Assembly: GCA_018110825.1 (NCBI GenBank)
Contig: JAGBCL010000115.1
Span: 1 to 64,000, forward strand
DNA from: Oscillospiraceae bacterium
Lineage (GTDB): Bacteria > Bacillota > Clostridia > Oscillospirales > Ruminococcaceae
Length of the DNA stretch: 64,000 nt
Reading direction: 5' to 3'
The notes beneath the pieces are model-generated. The model had not been told where the DNA came from, did no database searches, and saw only the letters and a list, made by a program, of their open reading frames with translations. This document shows positions 1 through 21,751 of the stretch, one piece after another (positions within the stretch are counted from its first letter, which is position 1; every line of letters starts with the position of its first letter). Made by a program: the position numbers and the translations under genes.

Positions 1-1435
1 GGACAACATCTGCCTGATTGACTTCAATATCAGTACCGTTTCAAATGACGGTACTGCCGTTTCCAAGGGTGGCTCTTCAGGTTTTGCCGCACCTGAACAG
101 TTCAGACGCATTATTGATGTTCCTGTTGTCCAGGACGATTTTCACGAGGAAACCCGTTTCATAGGTGTGGAAACAGATATATCCACTTCAAATCCTGCCT
201 CAAACATTGCATTTATTGATTTGCGTACCGATATTTACGGCGTAGGTGCGTCACTTTACTACATCCTTACTCAGAGAAGTCCTGTTGACGGCAAGATGGA
301 TTTCAATGGAATAAATGCCTCCAAAGCATTTAAATCCGCACTTATAAAAGCAACCAATACACAAGCATCAAAACGTTTCAGGAGTGCCGCGGAATTTGCT
401 GCTGAAATAAAGAAAATCAGTGAATCACGCAACAGAAAAAAAACATATATAATCGGGGCTGTTGTACTTGCTGCAGCTATAATTACTACTGCAATCTTCA
501 CCATAAACAGCTTCCGTCCGCAGGAAAACACTGCTGCAAGTAGGAATACTGAAAACACAAGAATACTCAATGCCAACTCAAAACTTGTATATACCAATGT
601 TCTTTCTTATTGCAACAAATGCAAATCCAACGGAATTTCCGTTGCTGACGGCTGGTACAGCGGTGCACTTGCTGACGGAAGTGACGACTTCGTTTATGAC
701 GGAAGCAGTGAGGACATGGCCAAAATGCTCAGCCACAATATAGGCGGCAATGAAAACAAAGGCTATTTCGGTGTAAACATAAGAAACAATACACCTGAAA
801 TTTCATTCTGGAGTCCGGATAGAAAAATCAAACTTGAAAAAATAACAGGACTTAATCAGGAAGAAATTATTGAAAAATCGCTTTCAATCGGAATTTATCC
901 CGATTATGAAACTCTTGACAAAGATGAAATTATTGTTACAAGCGTTACAGAAAAAGAAATTGTAATTGAAACATCAGATACAATTTATTTTGAGACTGAA
1001 GCAATTACAATGGAAGAAACAACTGCTGAAACCATTATCGAAGAAGAAAGCTTTGATATCGAGCTTTTTGAGCATAATCTTATTGAACTTATAAATATTC
1101 AGCGAAGAGCAGAAGGAGCAAGCGAACTTAAATATAATTTTGAACTGGAAAATATTGCATTCAACATGTGTAATGACGTTATAAACGATAACTGCAAATC
1201 CGATTATCTTGAATACAATAACCAGTTCGATGCATTCATTCCATATTACGGATATCAGCTTACACCTGATACCCAATATTCCCCCACCGATTATGCGTTG
1301 GCATTTCTGCAATTCGTAGAAGCAGAGGACCACGCAGTATGGAGCAATAAAGAATGGACATATATCGGCGTGGCAATAATTGAAGATCCAGAAAACACCT
1401 ATAATATTGTATTCTGTCTGAGTTACAATGAATAA
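1..1435 (+). CDS. Membrane Ser/Thr protein kinase with CAP-like extracellular domain (5' partial)
   Basis: The reading frame is already open at base 2, so the gene starts before the window; the GTG at 167 is internal. The visible part begins at the kinase metal-binding motif, which reads LIDFN instead of DFG. It continues through an APE-like motif (AAPEQF) and the subdomain IX block (DIYGVGASLYYIL). One membrane segment lies near bases 440-505. After it come about 290 outer residues: an unassigned part, a Glu/Thr-rich linker, then a C-terminal region (about bases 1060-1430) with features of a CAP/SCP domain (LINIQRR early, YIGVAI late). The protein is probably a membrane kinase whose outer domain senses or binds something at the envelope. 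It is 12 bases upstream of the next gene, so likely in one operon. The kinase call is firm. The CAP call rests on short motifs. Confidence 0.85.
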   Translation, partial: DNICLIDFNISTVSNDGTAVSKGGSSGFAAPEQFRRIIDVPVVQDDFHEETRFIGVETDISTSNPASNIAFIDLRTDIYGVGASLYYILTQRSPVDGKMDFNGINASKAFKSALIKATNTQASKRFRSAAEFAAEIKKISESRNRKKTYIIGAVVLAAAIITTAIFTINSFRPQENTAASRNTENTRILNANSKLVYTNVLSYCNKCKSNGISVADGWYSGALADGSDDFVYDGSSEDMAKMLSHNIGGNENKGYFGVNIRNNTPEISFWSPDRKIKLEKITGLNQEEIIEKSLSIGIYPDYETLDKDEIIVTSVTEKEIVIETSDTIYFETEAITMEETTAETIIEEESFDIELFEHNLIELINIQRRAEGASELKYNFELENIAFNMCNDVINDNCKSDYLEYNNQFDAFIPYYGYQLTPDTQYSPTDYALAFLQFVEAEDHAVWSNKEWTYIGVAIIEDPENTYNIVFCLSYNE

Positions 1436-1788
1436 AGGAGCACGCATATGAAATCCAAACTCAAAATAATAATTCCCGTAGCAGTTGCAGTCATAGCAAT
1501 TATAGCAGCCATAATCTTCATCAGATTCAGTTCTGACGATGCAAACAAGATTTCAAAAATGCTTGACACAGCGCAGAAATATCTTGTGGAACAAAACTAC
1601 GAGCAGGCAATTGCTGAGTTTGAGAATATTATTGAGCTCGACCCAATGAACGCGGACGCGTACATAGGTATTGCTGAAGCATACATAAAAATGGGCAACA
1701 CTGAAATGGCTGTTGAATGGCTGGAAAAGGGCTTTGAAGCTACGGGTGATGAGAGCCTGAAGGCAATGCTTGATGAGCTGCTTTCGAC
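1432..1788 (+). repeat. Direct repeat, unit A: shared 5' module of TPR genes
   Basis: About 355 bases covering the ribosome site (AAAGGAGCACGCATATG) and the anchor-TPR coding module are nearly identical to bases 2611-2964; I see only scattered single-base changes. Similarity stops abruptly at the Thr-rich linker. This pattern fits recent duplication or gene conversion of the N-terminal module with exchange of the C-terminal domain. Confidence 0.85.
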
Positions 1789-2605
1789 ATCTGGGGAAAC
1801 AACTGCTATTACTACTGTTACTGTTGCTGAAACTACAACAACGGAAGAAATAACAACTTTATCTGCTGAAGAACAGGAAATAGAAGATATACGTAAACAG
1901 GCATTAGAGATTATTGCACCGTTTGTGCCTAATAAAAATAAAGGAGAGCCAAACTCGGTTGTATATACGTATTATGAGGATTATGCATGGTTAGATCCAT
2001 TATATTACGGGAATGCTGACACTTACAGTTGTTTTAGATGTACATACGATGAAAATGGAGATATATCAAAAGAGGAATATGTAAATCTTGATCTTTTAAG
2101 TATTTCTAAAAGTAGTTCGGAAAACATAATAGAATATAATTTTGACGCTGGATTTGGACACATAATAGAGTATAATCCTTATTCATCAAAAATGTATAGC
2201 CAAAAATATTATAGAAGTAGTGATGATATTACTTATGCTGCAACAACAGCTAGTGGTAATACATGGAATGCTGTTGGCGGAATAGATAATTGGTATAATA
2301 GGATTGAAAACGGTAAAATTGTAAAATCATCAGATATATATGAAATAGATGAAGAATATTATAGTTATAAAATTTACACTCAAAAAGATAAAATTAATAA
2401 AATTGAACGTGTTTATGGTGAATATGCAAATACGTTGGAGTATGACGAAGTAAATAATAGGTGGATATATCATTATTTCCAAGTAACCCCATATAAACTT
2501 GGTTTACCTGAAGGAGCAGATGAATCTATTTTTGATGTGGAAGATAAAATAGTAAAGACATTTGATAATTATGATGAATTTATGGCTTATATTGAAAATA
2601 ATTAA
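1448..2605 (+). CDS. Membrane-anchored TPR protein, copy 1 of a three-member family
   Basis: The 385-residue protein has a cytoplasmic MKSK start and one membrane segment (about residues 5-25). A short TPR region (about 40-110; LVEQNYEQAIAEFENII, then DAYIGIAEAYIKMG) follows. Next are a Thr/Glu-rich linker (about 118-142) and a C-terminal domain of about 240 residues that I do not recognise. The first ~115 residues and the ribosome site are almost identical in DNA to the next gene, while the C-termini are unrelated. TPRs bind other proteins, and the Thr-rich linker suggests the C-terminus is displayed outside. It lies between two kinase genes and is probably a signalling or surface partner of them. 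No enzymatic motif is visible. Confidence 0.8.
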   Translation: MKSKLKIIIPVAVAVIAIIAAIIFIRFSSDDANKISKMLDTAQKYLVEQNYEQAIAEFENIIELDPMNADAYIGIAEAYIKMGNTEMAVEWLEKGFEATGDESLKAMLDELLSTSGETTAITTVTVAETTTTEEITTLSAEEQEIEDIRKQALEIIAPFVPNKNKGEPNSVVYTYYEDYAWLDPLYYGNADTYSCFRCTYDENGDISKEEYVNLDLLSISKSSSENIIEYNFDAGFGHIIEYNPYSSKMYSQKYYRSSDDITYAATTASGNTWNAVGGIDNWYNRIENGKIVKSSDIYEIDEEYYSYKIYTQKDKINKIERVYGEYANTLEYDEVNNRWIYHYFQVTPYKLGLPEGADESIFDVEDKIVKTFDNYDEFMAYIENN

Positions 2606-2610
2606 ATTAA

Positions 2611-2964
2611 AAGGAGCACGCATATGAAATCCAAACTCAAAATAATAATTCCCGTAGCAGTCGCAGTCATTGCAATTATAGCAGCAGTAATCTTCATCAG
2701 ATTCAGTTCCGACGATACAAACAAGATTTCAAAAATGCTGGACACGGCACAGAAATATCTTGTGGAACAAAACTACGAGCAGGCTGTTGCTGAGTTTGAG
2801 AATATTATTGAGCTCGACCCGATGAACGCGGATGCGTACATAGGTATTGCTGAAGCATACATAAAAATGGGCAACACTGAAATGGCTGTTGAATGGCTGG
2901 AAAAGGGCTTTGAAGCTACGGGTGATGAGAGCCTGAAGGCAATGCTTGATGAGCTGCTTTCTGT
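2611..2964 (+). repeat. Direct repeat, unit B: shared 5' module of TPR genes
   Basis: Second copy of the repeat described at 1432-1788. A third, diverged copy of the same module (protein-level similarity, no near-identity) begins the gene at 20315. Confidence 0.85.
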
Positions 2965-3901
2965 GCCTGATAATGAGGTGGTAACTAACGCCGATAACAG
3001 TTGGTATGAAATGAGCTTCAATTCTGACGGAAAAATTATTCATGAAGATTTCTATGACGCTGACGGCAACTTCTTCGGAAGTGCGGATATTGAATACTGG
3101 CCTAACGGAAACAAGAAAACCGTTACGTACTATCGTGTTGACGGAAGCTATTACGTTTCTGAATACAACGAAGAAGGAAAGCTTCTGAAAAAAACATATT
3201 ACAACTCTGATGGAAGTATTGAAAAATATACCGTTAACGAGTTTAATTCTGATGGCAGAACTATCAAAAATACTGATTATAACGGCGATGGAACAATAAC
3301 TGCATATTCAGTATATGAATATGACAGCAACGGAAATCAAACTGCTTCTACTGACTATTACGGAGACGGAAGCATAAAGCAATACTTTAAATACCAATAT
3401 GATTCAAACGGACATATAATTTATTGGGAACACTACGAAAGCTTGCAATACAGAAAAGAAACATATACAGATGAATATATGTGGGAAGAAAGTCATGATA
3501 CTGCGGAATATAAATACAATGATGATTATACTATTGCTTATATTTATACAAACGGTGGTTTTATGCATCCAGATAATGTAAATGAGTTTTATTGCTATAG
3601 TATCAATGACACGAAAAACCATTATAGCCGCAGAATAATTACACGCGATGAAAACGGCAACGAAATTTACTCAGAAAGTTACAGCAATTATATGGGAACT
3701 GAAGAACTTACCGGCAAAAGTGAAAATATTTATGATGAAAATGGTAAATGTATTGAATCTAAATACTATTACAAAAATTATGAAACCGGAGAAATAGAGC
3801 TTGATAAGTATCATGTTTCAACTTTTGACGGTCTTGGAAATACAATAAGTAACATCGCATATAACGCAGACGGAACAATCTGGGCAACCTGGACTTATTG
3901 A
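2624..3901 (+). CDS. Membrane-anchored TPR protein with YD/MORN-like repeats, copy 2
   Basis: The 425-residue protein has the same membrane anchor and TPR module as the gene before it (about residues 1-113). From about residue 120 it carries tandem units of roughly 20 residues built on Asp-Gly and Tyr, for example YNSDGSIEKY, YNGDGTITAY and YYGDGSIKQY. These resemble YD (Rhs-type) or MORN-like repeats, which usually form beta-rich surface structures that bind carbohydrate or protein. The ribosome site AAAGGAGC is copied along with the module. The gene lies 18 bases after copy 1 and 18 before the second kinase, consistent with one operon. Function unknown; a surface binding or sensing role is inferred. 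Confidence 0.8.
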   Translation: MKSKLKIIIPVAVAVIAIIAAVIFIRFSSDDTNKISKMLDTAQKYLVEQNYEQAVAEFENIIELDPMNADAYIGIAEAYIKMGNTEMAVEWLEKGFEATGDESLKAMLDELLSVPDNEVVTNADNSWYEMSFNSDGKIIHEDFYDADGNFFGSADIEYWPNGNKKTVTYYRVDGSYYVSEYNEEGKLLKKTYYNSDGSIEKYTVNEFNSDGRTIKNTDYNGDGTITAYSVYEYDSNGNQTASTDYYGDGSIKQYFKYQYDSNGHIIYWEHYESLQYRKETYTDEYMWEESHDTAEYKYNDDYTIAYIYTNGGFMHPDNVNEFYCYSINDTKNHYSRRIITRDENGNEIYSESYSNYMGTEELTGKSENIYDENGKCIESKYYYKNYETGEIELDKYHVSTFDGLGNTISNIAYNADGTIWATWTY

Positions 3902-3919: not shown

Positions 3920-5998
3920 ATGATTACAATAGGACAAACTCTCGGAAACACCTATAAAATTACCGAACAACTCGGTGCAGGCGGCGGAGGTATTGTTTAC
4001 AAGGCTTTTCATACCCGTCTCGAAAGATATGTTGCCGTGAAGCTTATCAAGGACAAGGTAAAAGGAATTATCAACGAACGTGCCGAGGCTGATATTCTCA
4101 AGCGACTTAAGCATGACGGTCTGCCTCAGGTTTACGACTTCGTCACTGACGGCGAAGATGTTTACACTGTTATGGAATACATTGACGGCAGGTCACTTGG
4201 CGAAGAAATCAAGCTGCGCAAAAAAATTCCTTACGATACCGCTTTGCAATGGTCAAAGGAAATCTGCTCGGCGGCAGCTTATCTTCACAACAGAAAACCT
4301 GCAATAATTCACAGCGACATAAAACCTGCAAATATCATGCTTACCTCGGAAGAAAAAATCTGTCTTATTGACTTCAATATTTCCTCTGTTTTCGGAGGCG
4401 GCATTTATACAGTGGGAAGCAGCGAAGGCTTCTCCCCTCCTGAACAATATGAAGCTATGGCTTCCATGCAGAACGCAGCAGCTTTAGCTTCGGAAGATAA
4501 TGATGAAACAATTGTTATCGACAACACATCAAATATTATTGATTCACGCTCCGATGTATACAGCATAGGTGCTGTTATGTACATGATGGTAACAGGAAAG
4601 AAACCTGCTAACTCACGTACTGCAGTTACTCCCCTTTCCAAGCTTGATGCAAAGGTTCCTCAGGCGTTTGCATACATAGTTGACACGGCAATGAGCCGTG
4701 ATAAAGAGGACCGTTTCAGTTCAGCGGCGGAAATGCTTGAGGCACTCAACAAAATCAATAAGCTTGATAAGCGTTACAAGCGTATGGCACTTCGGCAGGA
4801 GCTTGCTTTCATCTTCTGTCTGCTTCTGCTTGCAGGTTCGGTTGTTTCAATTATTGCAGGCCATCGTATGATGAAAAACGAAGACAGCGGCAGGTACAAC
4901 AGCTATATTGAAGAGCTTGCGGAAATGAGTGCCGAAAATGATTATTCGGATTTTGATGACGTATTTAAAGATGTTACCGAAGAATACCCTGATGAAGCAA
5001 TGCCCTATTATTTCAAGGCAATGAGAGAATATTACAACAAGGATATTCAGGAAGCCTCCGAAACCCTTGATAAGTACGTTATCCCTTATATTTCCGATTT
5101 TTCGGAAAGTGAAAAAGTCAATATTTACCACATCAAGGCAGAAAGACTTTTTTATGCTGAGGATTATGTTGAAGCCTCTGATTACTATGGGAGGGCAGTA
5201 AATCTCAAGTCCGAAAATCCATCCTTGTACTGTGACTATGCACTTACACTTGCCCGCTGCAATGATACATATAAAGCTGAAGAAATTCTCGAGGAAGCAA
5301 TTTCACTTGGTCTTGAAGAGGATAGCGTTTACATGGCAAATGGTGAAATCCTCTACCAGAAAGGCGAATATGAACAATCAGCTGAATCACTTCTGAAGGC
5401 AATTGAACTTACAGATGACGAAAATGTAAAAAAGACCAGCTATCTTATATGTAGCCGTGCATATTCCGCACTTTCGGAAAATGACAGTCAGATAATCCTT
5501 TCAAACATTGAACTGTTGGAAAAATCACTGCTTGATGTTTCAGCTGAAAATCAGCTCCAGCTCAGGGAGTATCTTGTTCAGTGCTATATAGATTACGGCA
5601 CTGTAGTCGGTAATGATGAATACTACGCCAAGGCAATTACCTTGCTTGAAAAAATCAAATATGACGGCAACGGCGGTTATCAGAATGATATGAATCTTGC
5701 TGTTTTGTGCGACAGAATAGGCAATCACACAGGTGCCAAGGATATTCTCATTGATATGTCAGAAACTCCTGAGTATGAAATGAATATGTTTAAAATATAC
5801 GCTCAACTTGCATATGTTGAAGCAAATATTCAGGGAGATATTGATGTAAATGAACGTGATTACAGCGGCTTTGCCGAATTCTACAAGCAAGCTCAGGAGG
5901 CCTATAAAACATATAGTGCATCCGGACTGAGCGACCCTGATATGGATAAGCTCGATAAACTGTATGCTGAAATGAAACAGCTTGGCTGGCTTGATTAA
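3920..5998 (+). CDS. Membrane Ser/Thr protein kinase with extracellular TPR domain
   Basis: The 692-residue protein has a full kinase domain at residues 10-280: Gly-rich loop GAGGGGIVY (19-27), Lys41 in VAVKL, catalytic loop HSDIKPAN (131-138), metal motif DFN (151-153), PPE at 173-175, and SDVYSIG (211-217). One membrane segment lies at about 295-314. The outer part (about 320-690) is made of TPR-like helices (for example YVEASDYYGRAVNLKSENP). Compared with typical Hanks kinases the HRD Arg is Ser and the DFG Gly is Asn, as in the kinase at the window start; Lys and both Asp are kept, so it is probably active. The probable substrate route is the FHA protein and PP2C phosphatase at the far end of the Tad operon. 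The target itself is not visible. Confidence 0.92.
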   Translation: MITIGQTLGNTYKITEQLGAGGGGIVYKAFHTRLERYVAVKLIKDKVKGIINERAEADILKRLKHDGLPQVYDFVTDGEDVYTVMEYIDGRSLGEEIKLRKKIPYDTALQWSKEICSAAAYLHNRKPAIIHSDIKPANIMLTSEEKICLIDFNISSVFGGGIYTVGSSEGFSPPEQYEAMASMQNAAALASEDNDETIVIDNTSNIIDSRSDVYSIGAVMYMMVTGKKPANSRTAVTPLSKLDAKVPQAFAYIVDTAMSRDKEDRFSSAAEMLEALNKINKLDKRYKRMALRQELAFIFCLLLLAGSVVSIIAGHRMMKNEDSGRYNSYIEELAEMSAENDYSDFDDVFKDVTEEYPDEAMPYYFKAMREYYNKDIQEASETLDKYVIPYISDFSESEKVNIYHIKAERLFYAEDYVEASDYYGRAVNLKSENPSLYCDYALTLARCNDTYKAEEILEEAISLGLEEDSVYMANGEILYQKGEYEQSAESLLKAIELTDDENVKKTSYLICSRAYSALSENDSQIILSNIELLEKSLLDVSAENQLQLREYLVQCYIDYGTVVGNDEYYAKAITLLEKIKYDGNGGYQNDMNLAVLCDRIGNHTGAKDILIDMSETPEYEMNMFKIYAQLAYVEANIQGDIDVNERDYSGFAEFYKQAQEAYKTYSASGLSDPDMDKLDKLYAEMKQLGWLD

Positions 5999-6009: not shown

Positions 6010-6174
6010 ATGAATTTTACAGAGCTTTTTTCAACAACCGGTAGTATGCTATTTTACGGCGGAATTATTGGCGCTGTATTTTCAGTTGTTCTCAGTTTGA
6101 TTCTGATACCAATATTTTCTGCTTCAAAGAAAAAAATGTTGAAAAAAATTGAGTCTGAATATAAAAGTAAATAA
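6010..6174 (+). CDS. Small single-span membrane protein (54 aa)
   Basis: A short ORF begins at ATG 6010, 11 bases after the kinase stop, with a good ribosome site (AAGGAGGAAC). It encodes 54 residues: a short polar N-terminus, one hydrophobic helix of about 23 residues (MLFYGGIIGAVFSVVLSL region), and a Lys-rich tail ending in YKSK. Positive-inside topology would put the tail in the cytoplasm. Its position as last gene of the kinase operon suggests a small partner of the kinases or of the pilus. I know no family for it. Confidence 0.65.
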   Translation: MNFTELFSTTGSMLFYGGIIGAVFSVVLSLILIPIFSASKKKMLKKIESEYKSK

Positions 6175-6222: not shown

Positions 6223-6251
6223 TTGACATAGATTTGTATGTGATGTATAAT
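6223..6251 (+). promoter_or_regulatory. Sigma-A promoter of the Tad pilus operon
   Basis: TTGACA at 6223-6228 and TATAAT at 6246-6251 with a 17-base spacer are a perfect vegetative promoter. It lies about 150 bases before the first Tad gene, leaving a leader of roughly 150 nucleotides. Confidence 0.85.
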
Positions 6252-6381
6252 TAATAAGTGGCATTTTGCAGAAAAATATCTTATTTTCTACAAATTTCTG
6301 CACCTTACATTAACAAATACAGAAATTTCAAAGCCAAAATAATTTCTGAATGTAAAAATGCATTACTTTGAGAGAGGAGGA

Positions 6382-6400
6382 CATGCTTCTCAGAAGCATG
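6382..6400 (+). promoter_or_regulatory. Palindrome between ribosome site and start codon of tadZ
   Basis: The sequence ATGCTTCTCAGAAGCAT at 6383-6399, flanked by C and G, is a perfect inverted repeat with 9-base arms and a one-base centre. It separates a strong Shine-Dalgarno (GAGGAGG, 6374-6380) from the most likely start ATG at 6410. Folded as a hairpin it would bring the two to about 10 bases apart. Unfolded, the ribosome site would serve ATGs at 6383 or 6398 at poor distances. Confidence 0.55.
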
Positions 6401-6409
6401 GTCATAATT

Positions 6410-7447
6410 ATGAAAATCAAAATTGCAATTGCAGATAATGAAATCGCTTACATCAATAAGCTTTTTTCGGTTTTTGAAAGAAAGGAAAATGTTTCAGTTT
6501 CTATGTTTACAGAAACTGAAAGTCTGAAAAAAGCACTTAACAATCAGAACTACGATATCCTTATTATCAACCCTGAGTTGGATTCTGACACACTCAACTA
6601 CAAAAAGGCTACTGTTGTTGTTTTCCTTTCAGATAACAGCTCTTCCACTTTCAACGTAAGCTGTCAGGATTACAGCGTGGTTTTAAAATACCAGCAGATA
6701 AGCAAAATCTTCAATGAAATTATAAACATTTACTCCGAGATAGTTCCTACTTCGGGAATGGACGGAAGAAGCACTATAGCAAAAATTATTCCTGTATATT
6801 CCCCTGCAGGCGGTACAGGAAAAACTACAGTTGCACTCTCTGTTGCCGAAATGCTTGTTAACCGCGGATATAAAGTGCTGTATATCAACTTCGAAATGAT
6901 TTCTTCATACGGTACATATCTTCCACAAAACAACGGAAGAAATTTCGGAGATATTATTTCCAAAATGGGTGTCGGCTTCAACTGGAAACTGAAAATCGAA
7001 AGTATCATTCAGACTACTCAAAAGGGTATCATGTATTTTGAAGAGTTCAAGAACATTTTTGATGTATATGAAATTTCCGCTGCTGATGCAGAAATGCTTG
7101 TCAACGGTATTGCTTCCGCAGGTGTCTGTGATTACCTGATTATTGATATGGACAATGACCTTTCTGCTGTAAACCGCAAAATCATGAGTATTTCCGATAT
7201 TGTGGTTGCTGTAGCAGCTGCTTCCGAAACAGCAAGCTATAAATTCAATAAATTCCTTGAACACTTTGATATTATTGTTGAAAACACCGATAAGCTCAAT
7301 ATTGTTTGCAACTTCGGCAAACAGCCCGACAATGCAATATCTGCTTATCCGGTAATCGCTAATATCCCGCAAATTAATTCGGGATTTAAAAACGTAATTG
7401 ATTATATCAACAAGAATTCCCTTATCAATATTGAAAATCTGATGTAA
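6410..7447 (+). CDS. tadZ: TadZ/CpaE-like ATPase, pilus localisation
   Basis: TadZ/CpaE proteins place the Tad machine at a cell site. This 345-residue protein starts with a receiver-like domain (MKIKIAIADNE; about residues 1-115) and continues as a ParA/MinD-type ATPase with a deviant Walker A (PAGGTGKTT, about 132-140), as usual for the family. I chose ATG 6410 because the protein there begins like a receiver domain; an in-frame TTG at 6368 and ATGs at 6383 and 6398 would add up to 14 residues. The receiver-like domain shows no clear phospho-acceptor Asp with the usual context, common in CpaE. It is the first gene after a consensus promoter and is followed 16 bases later by tadA. Confidence 0.88.
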   Translation: MKIKIAIADNEIAYINKLFSVFERKENVSVSMFTETESLKKALNNQNYDILIINPELDSDTLNYKKATVVVFLSDNSSSTFNVSCQDYSVVLKYQQISKIFNEIINIYSEIVPTSGMDGRSTIAKIIPVYSPAGGTGKTTVALSVAEMLVNRGYKVLYINFEMISSYGTYLPQNNGRNFGDIISKMGVGFNWKLKIESIIQTTQKGIMYFEEFKNIFDVYEISAADAEMLVNGIASAGVCDYLIIDMDNDLSAVNRKIMSISDIVVAVAAASETASYKFNKFLEHFDIIVENTDKLNIVCNFGKQPDNAISAYPVIANIPQINSGFKNVIDYINKNSLINIENLM

Positions 7448-7463
7448 TTCTGAGAGGTGCATT

Positions 7464-8759: not shown

Positions 8760-8800
8760 TATTTAATTCGTGATATATTATCTGGAGGGTTGAAATTACA

Positions 8801-9589: not shown

Positions 9590-9604
9590 TGGACGGTGAA
9601 CAAA

Positions 9605-10731: not shown

Positions 10732-11028
10732 ATGTTTAACAAGTTAAACGACCTTTCCGTCAAGGCTTATGTAAAGGCAACAAATGCTGTAACTAACGCT
10801 AAGACAAAAATCAAGAATGAAGTAAAGAGCTTCACAGAGGATGAACGCGGTGTAGATGGTATCATTATCGCCGTTCTTCTCCTTCTCGTTGCTGTAGTTC
10901 TCGTAGCTGTATTCTGGGAATATATCTCTGAATGGTTTGGAAATCTTTGGGATAGCATTTTCAATTCTGCTCCTGATGTTTCTAAGGATGGGGCTAAGGG
11001 CGACGTAGCAGTACCTGGAGGCAACTAA
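10732..11028 (+). CDS. Flp1-like major pilin candidate
   Basis: The 98-residue protein has an unusually long cytoplasmic leader (about 40 residues, Lys-rich) ending in ERGVDG. One long hydrophobic helix follows (IIIAVLLLLVAVVLVAVF) and then a short acidic/aromatic outer part. This matches Flp1-like pilins of Firmicutes, which lack the classical Glu-Tyr pair after the cleavage site; cleavage by the TadV-type peptidase after the Gly of ERG is the likely step. It has the strongest ribosome site in the operon (AGGAGGAAAAATT) and is followed by a stable stem-loop, both suggesting high expression. Called the pilus subunit by position and form. Confidence 0.8.
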   Translation: MFNKLNDLSVKAYVKATNAVTNAKTKIKNEVKSFTEDERGVDGIIIAVLLLLVAVVLVAVFWEYISEWFGNLWDSIFNSAPDVSKDGAKGDVAVPGGN

Positions 11029-11083: not shown

Positions 11084-11115
11084 GTCACTGAGTAAAGCTG
11101 CAAGGAGAAAGTTTT

Positions 11116-11778: not shown

Positions 11779-11795
11779 TACAAGAGGGGTAATTT

Positions 11796-14700: not shown

Positions 14701-15059
14701 ACACAAACAAGAAAAAATCCACAATACCTAAACTATCTTTGAATTATAAGCAATATCTGCTGTTGAATATACTGATATTCACCAATAAAGACGACCTGCT
14801 CCAGCGAACGCGTGACCTGATTGACCTTAATGTCAACAAGAAACAGGGTAATGTTGAGATAAAGGACGATGTTGTTGTTCTCAGCGGTGATGATTATTTC
14901 AGAATCAATGACCAGATTACTGTTATCAATGCTGACTGCAGTGTTCAGATGTCTCCGCTTTTTGCTTCTCTTGGCGTTGACAAGCTTACTGATGATTCAC
15001 AGCAGGTAATGGATTATCTGACTGACAAGAGAACTTATTCTGTTACAAAGGGGTACTGA
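11796..15059 (+). CDS. Very large TadG/DUF5702-like surface protein (1087 aa)
   Basis: A Lys-rich N-terminus (NEKGMVTVLVSLL) leads into one membrane helix at about residues 20-42, followed by DFARVKMAESQA. This opening is typical of TadG and DUF5702 proteins of Firmicute Tad loci. More than 1000 outer residues follow, with helical/coiled segments (about 290-440) and a Ser/Asp/Lys-rich stretch (about 785-810). The usual TadE Glu at +5 is absent. The protein probably anchors or tips the pilus in the thick cell wall. The next gene follows one base after the stop, so translation is tightly coupled. Confidence 0.78.
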   Translation: MKNKKKKIRLFSRGNEKGMVTVLVSLLLVPVILFSGLMVDFARVKMAESQAVFTADLYANSVLASYNKEMYDMYALFGFTPNEELEAELAKIASTAYGGSYEITPQGVEKLVGLIGNSYSPTEATFAPFGNSQVSYSYSVAESRDSKGTLANDDIFRTQITDYTVTRMPTFLIEGAIDGGDSEIEQIMETVDQIKNLDKYSKITSIKGQLDAELEVFFKFLKAYNDDLHSLKSASFSGGETSYQWVYYSNHFGEYGMEELSDVLGEYTYKPDGTPSTIGYELDEYSTSYLEIVGAAYNELYDYRAEIDACLTEIENLSVDATDNLDEIKEQREKLNDMLTELSNREQERYEISPGVWEEGFVHLTAKMLGRVGYNLNRIIYRITDSNAYTNQAGDNPFTLKSLEWARDMVQIGEKLDSKKEKINNLINDIYTEREKAINSGCDIEIIDQMIGDYYEIQKLTTDDFSYTTYAQKYTEFAELLRNSVVGGQYYSSTSVVQSNEGALGHDLALINSEAHNLTRYCQAARNYADEVIVQEDFILMEDYITQDNTPDEPDIKDTYAYVLDNYDLFNHTSSTNFTPAYLEKQLFGLNGTELQDFEFMHNDKTVVNVVYTAGSNSGTGTTTVADICDYIKRSFQTSNIGDEKENSVLKKAKKLLDDMDGVSLDVYEDNPVVIGDAVVEKLATKQAAEEKKSKSMSEMLTGIDSFFPTLDDQNDNFMGMLANMIVMLYDYNMFSCDTTDKVPNADLASKDNKLSSDKQEVHGGNKLELGDGKDESSALANLAQKDNSDSSSSSSDSSSSKDKKKNIFYTEKEDDERDESMTDQCYADTSLLYRCELEYLYSGNKEMQKNLNNTRLTIIAERTVFNYMSTYTTDELNNVLNGIRNTVSAVFTPAVGIITDGVLRLAIAALETNSDMTMLLSGDSVVLLKTDLTDFSSYTMIANLLNDSIADAESAADTSQKGKITPLDTNKKKSTIPKLSLNYKQYLLLNILIFTNKDDLLQRTRDLIDLNVNKKQGNVEIKDDVVVLSGDDYFRINDQITVINADCSVQMSPLFASLGVDKLTDDSQQVMDYLTDKRTYSVTKGY

Positions 15060-15060
15060 T

Positions 15061-16029
15061 ATGAACGAAAAAAGCAATGACCAGCGCGGCTTTATTACAA
15101 TTGAAGCAACCTTTTCACTGGTTATGTTTATTGCAGCAGTTGCATGTATTATTTCTCTGATTAATATTTTCACGCTGCATAACAGGGTTCAGTACGCTAT
15201 TACCCAAACGGCAAACCAGTTCTCTACATATATGTATATCTATGACGGACTAGGAATTCAAGATGCCGTTGAAACCTTTGATAAGAATTCAGATATTGCA
15301 ACCGAAGGCATCAACAACTCTGCAAACGATATTGCCAACACTGCAATAAGCGCCAACAAATTCGGTGAATCCATCGCAACGGTTCTTTCCCAATTCGGAG
15401 GTATTGCCACATCAACAGGACATGCTGCACAATCTGCTAATGATATGGTAAATAATGGTGATATAAGTATACAAAACATAGAATCCTTCATTAATGAACT
15501 TAAACAAATCAGAACATCTGTCGATGATACCAAGCAAAGCATTGATGATGCAAAGTGCAGCTACAACACAATGGTTCAGGATTTCAATACTGCTAAGGAT
15601 TCCACATCGGCATACATCAAAAGTATTCAGGAAAACCCGTACTCACTTGCACTGACAATTTTTTACCTCGCAGCCAACGAACTTGAAGATTATTTTAAAG
15701 AAACCATAAGTGAAAATCTTGCTTATGCTATGACAGAGCAATACCTTATGGGCGATTCGGCAAGTGATTATCTCGAAGCAGCAGGTGTTGTTGGTGGATA
15801 TGATGGACTAAGCTTTAAAGGTACAAACTTTTTTGAACCTGTCACAAAGGCTGCTGAAGGCAAATCCTATTCCAGCGACTCATCACGAAGCCTTAACGTT
15901 CTTCAGATTGATGTTGTTGTATCATATGAAGTAGAATTGAACTTTGCATTTATGCCGCTTAGCGACAATACAGTTACAATTGTTCAGAGAGCCAGCACAG
16001 CTGCATGGACAGGTCACGAAAAAAGCTAA
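15061..16029 (+). CDS. Second TadE-like pseudopilin with long outer domain
   Basis: The 322-residue protein has a short leader with QRGFITIEATFSLV, then a hydrophobic helix; Gly and Glu at +5 fit the TadE cleavage pattern. The outer part is mostly helical and rich in Asn, Ala, Ile and Gln (about 60-200), resembling coiled-coil repeats, with a beta-rich end. It overlaps by position the ORF of the prepilin peptidase; the preferred start of that gene lies just after this stop. Probably a minor pilin of the Tad pilus. Confidence 0.78.
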   Translation: MNEKSNDQRGFITIEATFSLVMFIAAVACIISLINIFTLHNRVQYAITQTANQFSTYMYIYDGLGIQDAVETFDKNSDIATEGINNSANDIANTAISANKFGESIATVLSQFGGIATSTGHAAQSANDMVNNGDISIQNIESFINELKQIRTSVDDTKQSIDDAKCSYNTMVQDFNTAKDSTSAYIKSIQENPYSLALTIFYLAANELEDYFKETISENLAYAMTEQYLMGDSASDYLEAAGVVGGYDGLSFKGTNFFEPVTKAAEGKSYSSDSSRSLNVLQIDVVVSYEVELNFAFMPLSDNTVTIVQRASTAAWTGHEKS

Positions 16030-16046
16030 AGCAGGAGGAAAATAAT

Positions 16047-16697
16047 TTGTACATTGTAATTGCTGCAGTTGCTGCAATATTGATCTTTATTACGGTAAAT
16101 ATTTCAGCATCACTTTATTATAAAACAGAAAATCCCAGCTGGAAACAACTGCTGTTTCATTCCCGCGTCTCTGTAATTTTTGCGGCGATTGCTGCTGTTG
16201 CGTTGGGTGCAGCTGCTGTTATCCAACACGGAAAAATCGGAAATTATGATTTTTTCAGATTATTTGTAATAACTACAGGTATGGCTTTGCTATGCGTTAC
16301 GGATATGAAAGAAAAAAAACTTCCGAATAAAATTCTCGGAATACTTCTGGTTATTTGGCTTGTTATGACGTCAATATTTATTATTACCGATTTCCAGCCT
16401 ACCATTTCCAAGGTTGGAACCGCTCTTTTCGGGTGCTTCTTCTGCCTGCTCACTTTTGGTATAACCTATATTATTTCCAAAAAGAGCCTCGGCGGAGGAG
16501 ATGTCAAGCTTTCAATGCTTATGGGACTTTATCTTGGTTCCGAACGCATTGTAGCAGCGGTTCTGTACGGAGCAGTATTCAGTGCACTGTTTTCATTAAT
16601 CGGACTTCTTGCAAAAAAAATCACCAAAAAAACCGAACTTCCATTCGGCCCATTCCTTTTTGCAGGTACGGTCATTTCATTATTTATATTTGTATAA
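16047..16697 (+). CDS. tadV: TadV/CpaA-type A24 prepilin peptidase
   Basis: This aspartic membrane peptidase removes leaders from Flp and TadE-like prepilins. The protein has about six membrane helices and the two catalytic Asp contexts: TDMKEKKLPN and GGGDVKLSM. It lacks the Cys-containing methylase domain found in PilD, as is normal for Tad peptidases. I place the start at TTG 16047 because AGGAGG lies eight bases upstream; an in-frame ATG at 16005 overlaps the previous gene and has no ribosome site. The product is 216 residues. Confidence 0.9.
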   Translation: MYIVIAAVAAILIFITVNISASLYYKTENPSWKQLLFHSRVSVIFAAIAAVALGAAAVIQHGKIGNYDFFRLFVITTGMALLCVTDMKEKKLPNKILGILLVIWLVMTSIFIITDFQPTISKVGTALFGCFFCLLTFGITYIISKKSLGGGDVKLSMLMGLYLGSERIVAAVLYGAVFSALFSLIGLLAKKITKKTELPFGPFLFAGTVISLFIFV

Positions 16698-16715
16698 TCG
16701 GGGGATTGATAATGT

Positions 16716-18095
16716 ATGAAATCTCGAAAATTGACTTTATTGCTGCCAATGCTGGCAATAATCCTTCTGGTATGGATTTTTGCAGCTGCAAGCATGAATA
16801 ACGATGAAACTGCCGAGCTTATTGCACATCAGACATTGCTTGTAGAAAAAGCTGATGTATTCTGTGCAGATGAAATTTATTCAAGAGCTATCCCGCTGTA
16901 TGAAGAAGCATGTACAATTGCAACAGATTCTACTTATGATATAAGCTATAAGCTTGCAGATGCATACTATAAGTCGGGAGATATCAAAAGCTACTACGAG
17001 CTTCTTATTTTCAGATGTGAAAGCACCGGATATACTGCTTATGAAGAGGAATTTGTCAGCCTCGCAGAATACTATTTCAACTCAAGCAACTATGCAGGTG
17101 CAATGGCTATACTTGATAAGGGCATTGCTGCATACGACAGTGATCAGCTGAAAAAAATGAAGGAAGAACATACCTATGATTTCCATGATGCTTCCGGATT
17201 TTATTCTGAAATGACAATTACTTCCGCAGACTATATTCCTGTTTGCCTGGGAGATAAGTGGGGCTATATAAATAATTACGGCGGTCAGCTGGGTGAATTT
17301 ATTTATGACACTGCAACACCTTATTTTTATGCTTTCGCTTATGACGGAGAAACAATGCTGAGCAGCACGGTTTACTGTGCAATGGTTAATTATGCCGGCA
17401 TAAACCAGATTGTTGATTCCGACGGAAACAGATATGCACTCTGTAAAGAAAATATTACTGACATTCTGGGAATGCAGAAATCAGGTTACGGACTTGTGAA
17501 AAACGGCAACGGAAAATACGTATTCGTAAACAGTGAATTCAAAGTAATCAGCAATGAATTTGAATTTGTCGGACAAACAAGCTCAGACGGTATGTCGGTG
17601 TTTACCGCAGGCGGTAAGGCCGGTGCTATAGACAGTTCATTCCAGACTGTTATCAACGCTGAATATGATGCTTTTGCACAAAATGCATACGGTGAATCTT
17701 TCAATGCCGGAAGAGGCTTCGGGCTTAAATCAGGAAAATATACACTGCTTGATTATACAGGCTCTGTAATAGGCACTGACAGTTACGATGATGCACACGG
17801 TTTTTATCCAAATGCAACACTTGCAGCTGTTTGTAAAAATGGAAAATGGGGATTTATTGATACTGAAGGAAATGTTGTTATTGATTATCAATTCGAAAAC
17901 GCAAAATCCTTTAGCAACGGTCTTGCAGCTGTATGCAGAAACGGAAAATGGGGATTTATAAATTCCGATGGCAAGCTTGCTATAGATTATATTTTCGATG
18001 ACGCATTTGCTTTTAATAAGTACGGTACAGCACAGGTATATACATCAGAAGGCTATAAGTTAATTAGTTTAAATTGGTTTAATAATGAGGTGTAA
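16716..18095 (+). CDS. Membrane-anchored WG-repeat protein
   Basis: The 459-residue protein has an N-terminal membrane anchor (about residues 5-27) and a TPR-like helical part (about 30-145). WG repeats follow in the C-terminal half, for example DKWGYINNYGG, GKWGFIDTEGNVVI and GKWGFINSDGKLAI. WG (KWG) repeats form beta-hairpins that often bind proteins or cell-wall components. It sits between the pilus peptidase and the FHA gene and its stop overlaps the ribosome site of the FHA gene, so it probably belongs to the signalling arm of the operon. Role unknown. Confidence 0.82.
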   Translation: MKSRKLTLLLPMLAIILLVWIFAAASMNNDETAELIAHQTLLVEKADVFCADEIYSRAIPLYEEACTIATDSTYDISYKLADAYYKSGDIKSYYELLIFRCESTGYTAYEEEFVSLAEYYFNSSNYAGAMAILDKGIAAYDSDQLKKMKEEHTYDFHDASGFYSEMTITSADYIPVCLGDKWGYINNYGGQLGEFIYDTATPYFYAFAYDGETMLSSTVYCAMVNYAGINQIVDSDGNRYALCKENITDILGMQKSGYGLVKNGNGKYVFVNSEFKVISNEFEFVGQTSSDGMSVFTAGGKAGAIDSSFQTVINAEYDAFAQNAYGESFNAGRGFGLKSGKYTLLDYTGSVIGTDSYDDAHGFYPNATLAAVCKNGKWGFIDTEGNVVIDYQFENAKSFSNGLAAVCRNGKWGFINSDGKLAIDYIFDDAFAFNKYGTAQVYTSEGYKLISLNWFNNEV

Positions 18096-18099
18096 AACT

Positions 18100-19470
18100 A
18101 TGAAAGATGTTAATTTTGAATCATTACGTGATATTAATGAAAATCTCCTCAAGCTTACTGTTGAAAGTGAAAATATAGATAGTATTGCTGAAAAAGTTGC
18201 ATTGAACGATTGCCCTGACTTTATCATTCCTTTTGTAAGGTCAGAAATTAACGGAAATATTGTTTATAAATACAAGGTTGGTAATCTTCTGGCAGTTAAA
18301 TATCTTGAAAAAGAAGTTAACAAGGTCAATTTTATCAAGCTTATCAAAAACGTGCTCGAGCCATTTATGACATGTGAAGAATGGTTTATGGACTACCGTC
18401 GCTTCTATCTTAACATGGAAAATATCTACATCAAGAAAGAAGATTATACTATAAAGTATATTTATATTTTCTCTGATGATTATTGTTCAACCGATGAGGA
18501 CGTAAAAACATTCATTACTGAACTTATAAAGAAAATCAGAATCTCCGATGACAGCGAACTCAAGCTTGAACTCGTAGAACTTTTGCTTACAAATGAATAT
18601 ACTATTTCTGATATACTTGCTATTATCAGCAAATATGAAAAGAAATTCATGCAAAATGGTAATCAATCAGCTGTTCGTTCTGCACCAAGACCACAGCCTG
18701 TTGTTCAGCAGCCTGTTCCAAAACCTCAGCCAGCCCCTCAGCCGGCTCCAAAACCACAGATTTTCCAGCAGCCTGCTCCTGCACCAAAGCCTGCACCTGC
18801 TCCACAGCCTGTTGTTCAGCAGCCTGCTCCGAAGCCTGCATCTTCAGGCGGCGATGATTTTGATATCGATGACCTTTTCAATGATGGTCCATCAAATAAA
18901 AAGTCTAAAGCTGCAAAACCAGCAAAAGAAAAATCAGGCAGATTTTCTCTTTTCGGTAAAAAAGAAAAGCCTGCTGCTGCACAGTTTACAAATACAGCAC
19001 CAGCTCCTGCTCCTGCTGTAATTCCACAGCCGATTAATCCTCAGCCAATTATAAATACTGCTGACGACGATGATTCCACTCAGTTTATTATCCCCGGTAA
19101 TGAACCAACTCAGGCTGCCCCAAAGGAAAAGAAAGTTACACTTCAGCTTTGTAAAACACAGTTTAATACAGTTCCTGAGATAATAACCCTTTCCTTCAAG
19201 GAAAAGACCGAACTGACAATCGGACGTGAAGGCAACTCCCCGTCACATAAGTCAGATTATATACTTCCAGGTGTATCAAAGGAAATCGGCCGTAAACATA
19301 TTCAGATTGAACAGCATGGTGATAAATATTATATTATCGACCTAGCTTCACGAAACGGAACATACCTTAACGGTCAGATGATTTTCCCTAATCAGTTGGT
19401 TGAACTCGAAAGTGAGGCACTGATTACATTTGGCAATGACATTGTTACATACAAATTTATTATTTCATAA
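18100..19470 (+). CDS. FHA-domain phosphothreonine-binding protein
   Basis: The protein has 456 residues from ATG 18100, which follows GAGGTG by seven bases; an in-frame ATG at 18085 overlaps the previous gene. The N-terminal part (about 1-180) has no sure family. A Pro/Gln/Ala-rich linker of about 130 residues follows, with QPAPKP-type repeats, and a C-terminal FHA domain (about 370-456) carries IGRE, SRKEIGRKH-like and SRNGTYLNG motifs. FHA domains bind phosphothreonine, so it is the expected reader of the kinases upstream. There is no membrane helix. It could recruit phosphorylated partners to the pilus machine. Confidence 0.9.
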   Translation: MKDVNFESLRDINENLLKLTVESENIDSIAEKVALNDCPDFIIPFVRSEINGNIVYKYKVGNLLAVKYLEKEVNKVNFIKLIKNVLEPFMTCEEWFMDYRRFYLNMENIYIKKEDYTIKYIYIFSDDYCSTDEDVKTFITELIKKIRISDDSELKLELVELLLTNEYTISDILAIISKYEKKFMQNGNQSAVRSAPRPQPVVQQPVPKPQPAPQPAPKPQIFQQPAPAPKPAPAPQPVVQQPAPKPASSGGDDFDIDDLFNDGPSNKKSKAAKPAKEKSGRFSLFGKKEKPAAAQFTNTAPAPAPAVIPQPINPQPIINTADDDDSTQFIIPGNEPTQAAPKEKKVTLQLCKTQFNTVPEIITLSFKEKTELTIGREGNSPSHKSDYILPGVSKEIGRKHIQIEQHGDKYYIIDLASRNGTYLNGQMIFPNQLVELESEALITFGNDIVTYKFIIS

Positions 19471-19487
19471 TCCGGTTGGTGATTAAT

Positions 19488-20219
19488 ATGAATTTTATTC
19501 ACGGCTGTTACAGCGATATCGGCAACACACGTCCCAATAACGAGGACAGTATTTTAAGCTACGCATTTGAAAAAGACGGTTTATCTGTTTGCGTTGGAAT
19601 AATCTGTGACGGAATAGGCGGACTTGCAAACGGTGAATTTGCTTCAAGAAAAATGACTGCATATTTTATGAACTGGATTGTCAGCTTAAGCACAACTGAC
19701 CTGAGCCAGCGAGATTTCCAATCAATTACAATGGAATTCAAGGAACAGCTTCATACTATTAATGGAATTATCTGCAAGGAAGCTGCACTTAATTCCATTC
19801 AGACAGGTACAACTGTTTCAGGAGTAATTATTGTGAATGATGACTTTATGACAGTAAATGTAGGTGACAGCCGAGTATATAAGGTTGTGAAAAAAAGCGT
19901 TACTCAGCTTACAAGTGATGATGTGCAGATGCAGAACCGAAACGGTATAGAAAGAAGCGTGCTTTCACAGTGCATAGGCTACGATGGAAATATATTTATC
20001 AGCACTGTTATCGGCAAGGTGGAACACAATGACGCTTTCATTTTCTGCTCAGACGGTTTCTATAAGCTTATGAAGGATAAGGAAATTGCCAAAACGCTTT
20101 TCTGGCTCAACAAAAAGAAAAATGTGTCCTTAGTATGCAGCAGTCTTATTGAAAAAATCAAAAGCCGAGGCGAAAGAGATAATATTTCTCTCGGAATAAT
20201 CAAGTGCATCAACAAATAA
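19488..20219 (+). CDS. PP2C-family Ser/Thr phosphatase
   Basis: The 243-residue protein fits the PPM/PP2C fold: RPNNEDS, CDGIGGL, VGDSRVY, FCSDG and RDNIS are the metal-binding and core motifs in the right order. I place the start at ATG 19488; upstream in-frame TTG/GTG codons at 19476 and 19479 fall in the ribosome site. It is the eraser that would remove phosphates put on by the two membrane kinases, with the FHA protein as reader. It is the last gene of the Tad operon, directly before a terminator. Confidence 0.93.
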   Translation: MNFIHGCYSDIGNTRPNNEDSILSYAFEKDGLSVCVGIICDGIGGLANGEFASRKMTAYFMNWIVSLSTTDLSQRDFQSITMEFKEQLHTINGIICKEAALNSIQTGTTVSGVIIVNDDFMTVNVGDSRVYKVVKKSVTQLTSDDVQMQNRNGIERSVLSQCIGYDGNIFISTVIGKVEHNDAFIFCSDGFYKLMKDKEIAKTLFWLNKKKNVSLVCSSLIEKIKSRGERDNISLGIIKCINK

Positions 20220-20287: not shown

Positions 20288-20314
20288 TTATTAAAAACGC
20301 ATATGGAGGTTTAT

Positions 20315-21751
20315 ATGAAATCCAAACTAAAAATAATAATCCCCGTAATAATTGCTGTTCTTGCTGTAATTGGTGCAATTATCTTCATCAGATTCAATTC
20401 TGATGATACAAACAAGATTTCAAAAATGCTTGACACAGCACAAAAATATCTTGTAGAAAACAACTATGAGCAGGCTATTGCTGAATTTGAAAATATCATT
20501 GAACTTGACCCGAAAAATGTTGACGCTTATATCGGCATTGCGTGTGTTTACGATGAAATCGGAAACCGTGAAATGGCTATTGAATGGCTGGAAAAAGCTT
20601 ATGAAGAAACCGAAAGCGAAGAAATCAAGGAAATGCTTGACGAGCTTCTCGAAGGCGGTGTAATCTCTGATGATGACACAAATTCCGCTGACGTTATTCC
20701 CACAGTAACAACCGCTGTTACTACTGATTTCAGCACTGAGCCTGCTGTAACAACTATTTCGGATGATGAAACTACAATTTCTGAAACAACCGTTACAGAT
20801 GAAGAAAATGATTCTTTCAAAGTCGAAACAGCAGATTTCCCTTCTCTGCCTGACGTTGAACAGAAGTACTATATCGTGTTCAACGAAGGAAGCCGTAATG
20901 ACAGAGTTGAGCTGTCTGTTTTTGATATTGACGGTGACCTTAATGATAACTATATTTCATGGGGAGGATTCGGATATAATCTTTCACTGCATGACCACAG
21001 CGTAATGACAAACTGCGATCAGTATTATATTGAAAACGGCGAATGGACGTTATTTATAGAAGATTACCCACGAATGAGTGACACTGCTCACGCTGTAATT
21101 GAAAGCAATCTTGATGTTCGCAAGCCTGACGGTTCTCTTGTTCTTGCAGCTTCAGGAATTACATTGGGCAAGGTTGAGGAAGATAAGAAAGAGGAAGGAA
21201 CTTCTTTCACTCTTAATGTAGAAATTCCCGATTACTATTTCAGTCATGTTGAAAATCAAACCGGAAACGATGAATTATTTGCTTTTTTACGTGAAGCAAG
21301 CTATATTTATGATGCAATGTATGCTGGCGCCGGTCATATTAGCAGATTAACAAAAAATCTTGATAATCTTGGTGAAGTTGAAACCGACGTGTATACATAT
21401 ATTCGTACAGGAGTTTCTTTTGAAGATTATGAAACATTTTTAAAAAAATATTTTACTGAATACTTAGTTGACATGCTTGCAGCAGATGATGAAATCTGCC
21501 GCAATATTGACGGAGAATTTTGTTACACATTAGATCCTGGCAGAGGCGGTGACATTATGTATCAAGGTTCTGTTCTGACAATTTCCGAAGAAACCTCAGA
21601 TAAGATTGAACTTTCACTTGAAAGCTACTATTCAAATGCTAATTATCGTTCACTCGATGAACCACTTTATGAAGAAACACAAAGACGTTCATATACTTTA
21701 TATAAAGTAAACGGAGAATGGCGTTTTAACACTATGTTCTGCATATGCTAA
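20315..21751 (+). CDS. Membrane-anchored TPR protein, copy 3
   Basis: The protein has 478 residues from ATG 20315, six bases after GGAGG; an upstream ATG at 20303 overlaps the ribosome site. The N-terminal anchor and TPR module (about 1-112) matches the genes at 1448 and 2624. A Thr/Glu/Asp-rich linker follows (about 118-175), then an outer domain of about 300 residues that I do not recognise. Finding the same module at both ends of the Tad region suggests these proteins belong to the pilus or kinase system. Confidence 0.8.
   Translation: MKSKLKIIIPVIIAVLAVIGAIIFIRFNSDDTNKISKMLDTAQKYLVENNYEQAIAEFENIIELDPKNVDAYIGIACVYDEIGNREMAIEWLEKAYEETESEEIKEMLDELLEGGVISDDDTNSADVIPTVTTAVTTDFSTEPAVTTISDDETTISETTVTDEENDSFKVETADFPSLPDVEQKYYIVFNEGSRNDRVELSVFDIDGDLNDNYISWGGFGYNLSLHDHSVMTNCDQYYIENGEWTLFIEDYPRMSDTAHAVIESNLDVRKPDGSLVLAASGITLGKVEEDKKEEGTSFTLNVEIPDYYFSHVENQTGNDELFAFLREASYIYDAMYAGAGHISRLTKNLDNLGEVETDVYTYIRTGVSFEDYETFLKKYFTEYLVDMLAADDEICRNIDGEFCYTLDPGRGGDIMYQGSVLTISEETSDKIELSLESYYSNANYRSLDEPLYEETQRRSYTLYKVNGEWRFNTMFCIC

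Follow-up and report, generated by a model that had tools for sequence, protein, structure and literature searches.

The window, by which we mean the whole analysed stretch of 64,000 nucleotides (nt) from an Oscillospiraceae bacterium (GCA_018110825.1), is the start of contig C107 (JAGBCL010000115.1) of a 3.1 Mb genome and carries an operon for a Tad (type IVc) pilus together with genes for receptor Ser/Thr kinases, a DUF6382-FHA protein and a PP2C phosphatase. Judged from sequence, this Tad operon probably has a built-in phosphothreonine switch; our confidence is slightly reduced because several of the loci compared are split over contigs and the set of comparison kinases is small. The comparisons indicate that one subclade of Tad loci gained PP2C as eraser and a kinase, mostly transmembrane, as writer, that both were inherited with the motor gene, and that different kinases, bringing other outer domains, later took the place of the kinase.

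Phosphorylation genes at the Tad locus

The gathering of two membrane kinases, a Tad operon, an FHA gene and a PP2C gene, noted in a preliminary description of the window, was confirmed by profile searches. The FHA protein (18085..19470; this and all other window genes given below are on the + strand unless marked otherwise) consists of DUF6382 (3.1e-10), a linker and an FHA domain (1.1e-14), and has no predicted transmembrane (TM) segment. Only 5 nt past its gene starts that of the PP2C phosphatase (19476..20219), which retains the metal-binding Asp, has no TM segment by hydropathy and matched Pfam PP2C over the cut-off (4.9e-8); it also matched the Stp1 model at 1.1e-36, yet with 127 bits it stayed below the cut-off of 230. 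Kinase 2 (3920..5998) is complete, with a kinase domain (Pkinase 5.5e-36; motifs AVK, HSDIKPANI and LIDFN), a TM segment at 290-309 by hydropathy and an outer TPR region. Kinase 1 (2..1435) is incomplete because the window begins at the contig start, and only the portion from the activation segment onward is present. According to profile matches and hydropathy, this C-terminal part comprises the end of the kinase domain, a TM segment and an outer part with a CAP domain, which was the only domain matched in Pfam (5.8e-6); a dedicated kinase profile scored 126 bits.

Conservation of these genes was followed in related genomes, which are mostly drafts, so that absence near a contig end is weak evidence. 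A window-like TadA (over 400 bits) was found in 19 order-level genomes, 18 of which carried DUF6382, and a second TadA type (350-373 bits) in nine, none of which carried it. When the loci themselves were inspected, 21 of the first type (the 19 from the order survey and those of the congeners G016 and G018) and nine of the second, FHA was present at 20, PP2C at 19 and a kinase at 18 first-type loci, while all three were absent from every second-type locus. For G309, G137, G093, G116 and G244 the FHA part lay on a second contig and was linked through its DUF6382 match, which in G244 was below the family cut-off. Neither PP2C nor kinase was seen in G244, and no kinase in G307; in G126 the contig ends after TadG, and DUF6382 was not found in that genome. 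In a TadA tree of 97 loci, built by a quick method and supported by the Shimodaira-Hasegawa-like approximate likelihood ratio test (SH-aLRT) only, one clade (SH-aLRT 98) showed FHA, PP2C and kinase genes in 20 of its 21 rows, four of them split over two contigs, the remaining row being G126. This clade spans nine family codes, two of them outside the window's order. Outside the clade, G450 was the sole other full set in the tree, FHA and PP2C occurred together on four more rows and FHA with a kinase on one; G337 and G391 have all three genes and no TadA in the stretch, and hence do not appear in the tree. Distances among 21 loci including G450 correlated with those of TadA (Mantel r of 0.87 for FHA, 0.89 for PP2C and 0.67 for the kinase), and the metal-binding Asp was retained in 30 of 32 PP2C proteins. 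Among 41 relatives, TadA (1e-60) and a window-type kinase (1e-30) were found in the same four genomes and in none of the other 37. Three of these four have DUF6382; the fourth, G010 (80% complete), shows the order PP2C-TadZ-A-B-C-Flp-TadV-WG and then a contig edge. The question posed in the preliminary description, whether kinase, FHA and PP2C genes are conserved next to tadA in related genomes, is thereby answered in the affirmative for this type of tadA, while the second Tad type and most DUF6382 loci, which have no local kinase or PP2C gene, do not follow this pattern.

A class-level survey covered 393 genomes (Clostridia, judging by named relatives; TadA threshold 1e-40). DUF6382 was found in 127 genomes and TadA in 160; 122 genomes had both, 5 only DUF6382, 38 only TadA and 228 neither (Fisher 4.7e-60, a value that ignores relatedness). 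Spacing was compared in 106 of the 122 genomes, with five from the window's order left out and eleven others not compared: the two genes lay within 20 kb on one contig in 82, farther apart in 6 and on different contigs in 18. Stretches of up to 20 kb were then analysed around 64 DUF6382 genes (one per genus) and at 16 further Tad loci. TadA, TadB or TadC could be detected in 57 of the 64 DUF6382 stretches, and PP2C or a kinase in 10 (both in 5). Since DUF6382-FHA proteins are common at Tad loci throughout the class and most of these loci lack a kinase or phosphatase gene of their own, the reader looks like the core component, and kinase and PP2C look like an addition in one subclade and in scattered other loci. 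Thirteen of the 16 further loci were of the second type and had none of the three genes, six of them in genomes with a DUF6382 gene elsewhere; together with the nine order-level loci, FHA, PP2C and kinase were thus found at 0 of 22 second-type loci (stretches of 7-30 kb). As for the other three, G511 and G671 matched DUF6382 or FHA with profiles built for this analysis, having been missed by the Pfam search, and G687 matched neither. Among 80 loci from named genomes with flanks of at most 10 kb, 58 had DUF6382 and 17 a kinase or PP2C, two of the kinases being very weak matches (26 bits) and five lying on the other strand. The locus of the type strain Cohnella lupini CECT 8236 shows FHA-PP2C and the start of a kinase gene, and that of Catenibacillus scindens DSM 106146, also a type strain, a DUF6382 gene and a kinase.

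Kinase lineages and outer domains

The kinase tree comprised 34 rows and excluded the incomplete kinase 1, other short fragments, a kinase divided between L182 and L183, and the additional kinase that G299 has outside the slot. Kinase 2 pairs with a paralogue on contig C75 (99/92) and nests with Tad-linked kinases (96/92, 97/95). The label 'Tad-linked' required six changes on this tree, four of them forced by starred branches, and a number as low was reached in 28 of 500 shuffles. From the tree it is read that the kinase slot was repeatedly refilled by several lineages, e.g. those of G365/G137, G053 and G093/G116. The outer parts of the kinases vary in kind: TPR, CAP, LRR with Ig-like domains, a PQQ/WD40-like propeller and PASTA were found. 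Tad-linked kinases other than kinase 2 carry HRD, HGD or YRD forms, and several have one motif that was missed by the search patterns. The activation segment of window-type kinases has an insert with an acidic-Thr motif, e.g. EETRFI or DETIVI (no control comparison); in kinase 1 the insert contains EETRFIG.

Twelve kinase matches were obtained in the genome of the window. Contig C75, which may adjoin the window start, holds two more window-type kinases, one with LRR and one with MORN repeats (L182:1-2109; L182:18353 to L183:515), and also the beginning of a further kinase, truncated where the contig ends. L184 (G000:C87) of the same genome carries a cluster of two LRR kinases, two PP2C matches and two FHA matches, one of the latter in an FHA-trypsin protein; a relative of the window's TPR proteins is encoded close by. 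PADLOC matches of the kinase to anti-phage defence were judged to be generic kinase matches and were discarded. Four proteins of 1208-2144 residues with Ig-like domains, possibly adhesins, follow the kinase at L080:5354-12855, L054:6703-13134 and L044:6520-10437; the scan covered these three relatives' loci, and genes of similar size occur at others.

The FHA reader and its linker

In relatives of the window FHA protein, the region N-terminal to the FHA domain contains motifs of the kind FGETTVLG. Of 76 linkers, 54 fit a loose Thr-(x)-hydrophobic-hydrophobic pattern, 15 of them at least twice, versus 12 of 76 reversed linkers and 17.8 expected from shuffles; a stricter pattern was found in 31 versus 1 and 4.7, respectively. 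Both patterns were chosen after inspection of the sequences. The motif was frequent both at loci with FHA only (24/39 versus 10 reversed) and at loci with the full set (17/22 versus 1). In an alignment of the window FHA protein with 46 from named contigs, the Thr column was filled in 45 of the 47, although the aligner was free to seek it. In the window, the candidate phosphothreonine is T332 in DDDDSTQFII. By analogy, this enrichment recalls GarA/OdhI, which carry an ETTSVF motif and bind it in cis. The FHA profile matches these proteins (about 1e-16), and their Thr motif is likewise N-terminal to the FHA domain; they are not known to be linked to pili or to carry DUF6382.

The strict motif could be detected in 19 of 65 DUF6382-FHA proteins and in 8 of 26 kinases, in some of the latter in the outer part. 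It was found in 0 of 76 TadA, 2 of 65 TadZ, 0 of 22 TadB, 1 of 118 TadC, 0 of 26 WG and 0 of 29 PP2C proteins; being nearly absent from the Tad platform, it suggests no ligand there. DUF6382 itself had been suspected by eye to be an EssB/YukC-like pseudokinase. Sequence gave no support for this: one of 44 members matched YukC (E 0.11), and one DUF6382-YukC comparison by hhalign gave a probability of 0.5%, versus 0.2% and 0.3% for two controls. No significant relative of DUF6382 was found in the PDB (best E 0.058).

Proposed switch and alternative explanations

From these observations we infer phosphorylation control of pilus assembly. The receptor kinases would sense an outside cue (surface, glycan or peptide) via their exchangeable outer domains, be they TPR, CAP, LRR, beta-propeller or PASTA, and would phosphorylate the acidic-Thr-x-hydrophobic motif in the FHA linker and in their own activation segment. 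The FHA domain might then bind the phosphorylated motif in cis, like GarA/OdhI, or in trans, with the kinase or a further Tad component presenting it. Such binding would shift the docking of the DUF6382-FHA protein on the cytoplasmic platform (TadZ/TadA/TadB/TadC), so that pilus assembly starts or stops, and PP2C would clear the phosphate and reset the switch. In several relatives an invertible promoter, described below, may add an all-or-none transcriptional layer. The preliminary description had advanced the same kind of control; its interpretation as a whole is partly supported, and its genomic part strongly so by the sequence comparisons. The TPR proteins, which it named as a further source of the outside signal, may have such a role.

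Several findings weigh against a phosphothreonine switch. Neither kinase nor PP2C was found in 54 of the 64 class-level DUF6382 stretches, some of which are short, and a local pair is therefore not needed in general. At the order level, 12 of the 30 genomes with DUF6382 (of 297) have no window-like TadA. The linker motif of the window is a weak form, the aligner having chosen T352 instead of T332, and the Ser of the FHA SxxH motif is replaced by Gly (GRKH), with Arg, His and Asn retained. In G093 and G116, a degenerate PP2C is combined with kinases without a predicted TM segment. Common descent by itself could raise the Mantel values and make the genes co-occur in near relatives, and the comparison set of the kinase tree amounts to only eight other kinases, all from the window's genome. 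The kinases are, moreover, probably outside the Tad transcript, because a gap of 369 nt between kinase 2 and tadZ holds a small open reading frame and a perfect promoter match. The former (6010..6174) is predicted to encode a membrane-protein-like product of 54 residues, and the latter (6223..6251), TTGACA-17-TATAAT, is a promoter-like site by its 12/12 match to the consensus. Kinase 1, two TPR genes and kinase 2 form a separate upstream unit with spacings of 12-18 nt. On this point the preliminary description needs correction. As to the G093 and G116 proteins (L073, L077), the PP2C-like protein without the metal-binding Asp is perhaps a pseudophosphatase variant.

Some of these points would also fit a DUF6382-FHA protein whose main role in the Tad base is structural or in positioning, and which needs no phosphorylation or relies on a housekeeping kinase for it, with the local kinase and PP2C acting elsewhere, e.g. 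on neighbouring large surface proteins. The many DUF6382 stretches without either gene, the Gly at the position of the canonical Ser in many FHA domains and the large Ig-like proteins behind the kinase in the three scanned loci are all in line with it. The linker Thr motif, however, is enriched at loci with and without a local kinase, and the PP2C gene, in the window separated from fha by 5 nt, follows TadA in its distances; we consider this explanation unlikely.

The window kinases and TPR proteins could also form a separate sensory island that stands beside the Tad genes by chance, with FHA and PP2C alone belonging to Tad. The gap with its promoter match, the paralogous kinases on C75, the other kinase matches of the genome and a kinase-TPR block on another contig in G018 speak for such an island. 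Against it, kinase 2 is nested among Tad-linked kinases, and the kinase co-occurs with TadA in four of four genomes versus none of 37. In addition, the TPR-kinase-TPR block recurs beside the Tad locus of the congener G016: a full-length kinase 2 orthologue (49% over 735 residues), flanked by relatives of the second TPR protein of the window (44% and 42% over about 450 residues), lies on the same contig downstream of that genome's own Tad-FHA-PP2C-kinase genes and two large proteins. A chance neighbourhood thus seems improbable. That the neighbourhood reflects shared inheritance of an island with no functional coupling is very improbable. An island would fit the patchy distribution in the genus, where 4 of 21 genomes, not all of them complete, have TadA; but gene order is kept over nine family codes, the kinase slot appears to have been refilled by several lineages and none of these genes was seen at loci of the second Tad type.

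Comparison with known systems

PppA is the phosphatase of the threonine phosphorylation pathway of the type VI secretion system (T6SS). The window resembles this pathway in that a Ser/Thr kinase and an FHA reader (and a phosphatase) accompany an envelope machine, and in the suggested logic of assembly gated by phosphothreonine; it differs in that the machine is a pilus and the FHA protein carries DUF6382. For the T6SS, the kinase PpkA and Fha have been described together with TssL of A. tumefaciens (PMC3953482). With the T6SS TagH model (TIGR03354) the window FHA protein scored 28.2 bits, far below the cut-off of 120.25, and no T6SS families were found among 20 scanned proteins of 1-26.6 kb; kinase, PP2C and FHA at one locus in the window are T6SS analogues only.

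Closer in architecture are two type VII secretion (T7SS) subtypes: T7SSe comprises the kinase TseD, the PPM phosphatase TseF and the DUF6382-FHA protein TseJ, and T7SSf comprises TsfF and TsfJ with no kinase (PMC11217815). Phospho-regulation was also raised there, and Tad is mentioned in the part cited only as a neighbour of T7SSg and T7SSh, outside the three subtypes with a separate FHA component (PMC11217815). The window shares the DUF6382-FHA architecture and a PPM phosphatase with these subtypes, and the kinase with T7SSe, but theirs serve an EssC-type ATPase and WXG100 proteins, whereas that of the window would serve TadA/Flp. Neither an EssC-type ATPase nor WXG100 was found among the same 20 scanned proteins, a scan that did not extend to small open reading frames or to other parts of the genome.

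Tad machines are also known to occur with FHA domains in the Tad-like Kil system of Myxococcus, for which a signalling cascade was suggested in a paper whose main text does not use the words kinase and phosphatase (PMC8460266), and in the FHA-fused CpaF of class III (PMC12019362). In these systems the FHA domain is fused to the ATPase, whereas the window TadA has no FHA match. In Bifidobacterium, an FHA gene was listed under pili (PMC11418510).

We found no description in the open-licence literature of how clostridial Tad pili are switched on. If the proposed switch is real, DUF6382 gains a role, a widespread kind of pilus becomes testable by phospho-mutants, and the same regulatory cassette serves pili and secretion machines alike. 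Going further, one might regard the locus as a clostridial Tad subtype with two control layers, the phosphothreonine switch and, in several relatives, an invertible promoter with its own recombinase, and DUF6382-FHA as a general adaptor that couples envelope machines of Bacillota (Tad, T7SS) to Ser/Thr kinases; from sequence comparison we can propose this only tentatively, as somewhat short of an even chance.

Candidate invertible promoters in relatives

A tyrosine recombinase gene, always on the same strand, precedes tadZ at 8 of the 21 first-type loci; at least three others (G311, G126, G196) have contig starts too near tadZ to be judged. In seven of the eight (all except G053), the recombinase is enclosed by one inverted-repeat pair. 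These segments, which lie beside tadZ, are located at L079:7310-8714, L045:7335-8721, L057:7399-8862, L047:7440-8866 and L051:7473-8877, and also in the loci of G016 and G299; in G299 a further open reading frame lies between the segment and tadZ. Six of the seven segments show a promoter match of 11-12/12, directed outward and 23-26 nt inside the arm far from tadZ, and at most 1 of 300 shuffles was as good. In the seventh, G309, the match was 9/12 at 32 nt (82 of 300 shuffles). At the segment end near tadZ no match was better than 9/12. Inversion would therefore place the promoter before tadZ, and all seven assembled copies would be in the OFF orientation. The segments thus likely act as a phase switch with an invertible Tad promoter, although the seven loci are related and do not count as independent.

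In G104 (L043) and G047 (L049), an inverted-repeat pair of 20-21 nt, 115 nt apart, could be observed before PP2C-tadZ. Upstream of it lies a gene of 203 residues, which the scan of the G104 copy showed to be a serine resolvase. This pair is a candidate for a second, unrelated promoter switch. Neither an inverted-repeat pair nor a recombinase was found in the 2.6 kb before tadZ of the window. In the open-licence literature we found no report joining 'Tad pilus' and 'phase variation' with 'invertible'. If such pili are silent in cultured cells, the phase switch of the relatives could be the reason.

Gene layout of the window

The run from tadZ to PP2C (6368-20219) consists of twelve co-directional genes with gaps of -25 to 87 nt, and the Tad parts present are the motor, the platform, the Flp pilin, the prepilin peptidase, TadZ and TadE/G, the last assigned by weak matches and position. 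TadZ (6368..7447), which may in fact begin at the ATG at 6410, combines a receiver-like domain with a ParA/MinD-type ATPase. It is followed by the CpaF-type motor ATPase TadA (7464..8759; T2SSE 6.8e-57, over the Pfam cut-off), which matched the NCBIfam TadA family at 1.1e-87, yet with 294 bits below the cut-off of 373. TadB (8801..9589; T2SSF, 23.4 bits) is below the cut-off of 25.2 on its own, and TadC (9596..10669) matched T2SSF in Pfam. Next come the Flp-type pilin (10732..11028; Flp1_like 2.1e-7, 30.7 bits, below the cut-off of 33.5), a TadE-like pseudopilin (11116..11778) assigned by a weak match (0.0015) and position, a TadG-like protein with DUF5702 (11796..15059; Tad 0.0093, DUF5702 3.5e-18), and a second TadE/G-like pseudopilin (15061..16029) without a Pfam match and in a conserved position. 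The prepilin peptidase TadV (16005..16697) matched Peptidase_A24 above the curated cut-off (2.1e-12), and an anchored protein with TPR and WG repeats (16716..18095), present in most loci of the TadA subclade, precedes the FHA protein.

PP2C had been taken for the last gene before a terminator. No terminator-like site was found directly 3' of it; the next gene encodes membrane-anchored TPR protein c (20303..21751) and is preceded by a separate 11/12 promoter match. Downstream of PP2C, a strong terminator-like site, in both directions, first appears at 24204-24239. No RNA families were found at gathering scores in 1-26000. The other two membrane-anchored TPR proteins, a (1448..2605) and b (2624..3901), lie between the kinases. 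The first 300 nt or so of gene a are repeated in b and c, and these direct repeats of 300 nt (1434-1733, 2610-2909 and 20301-20600; 96% and 77% identity to the first copy) bracket the Tad region, so that recombination among them could delete it as a whole. Elsewhere in the window, a frame of 618 residues at 50468-51070 (-) matched TadA (33%, 9.6e-12); we guess it to be a PilB/GspE-type ATPase, perhaps of another type IV pilus.

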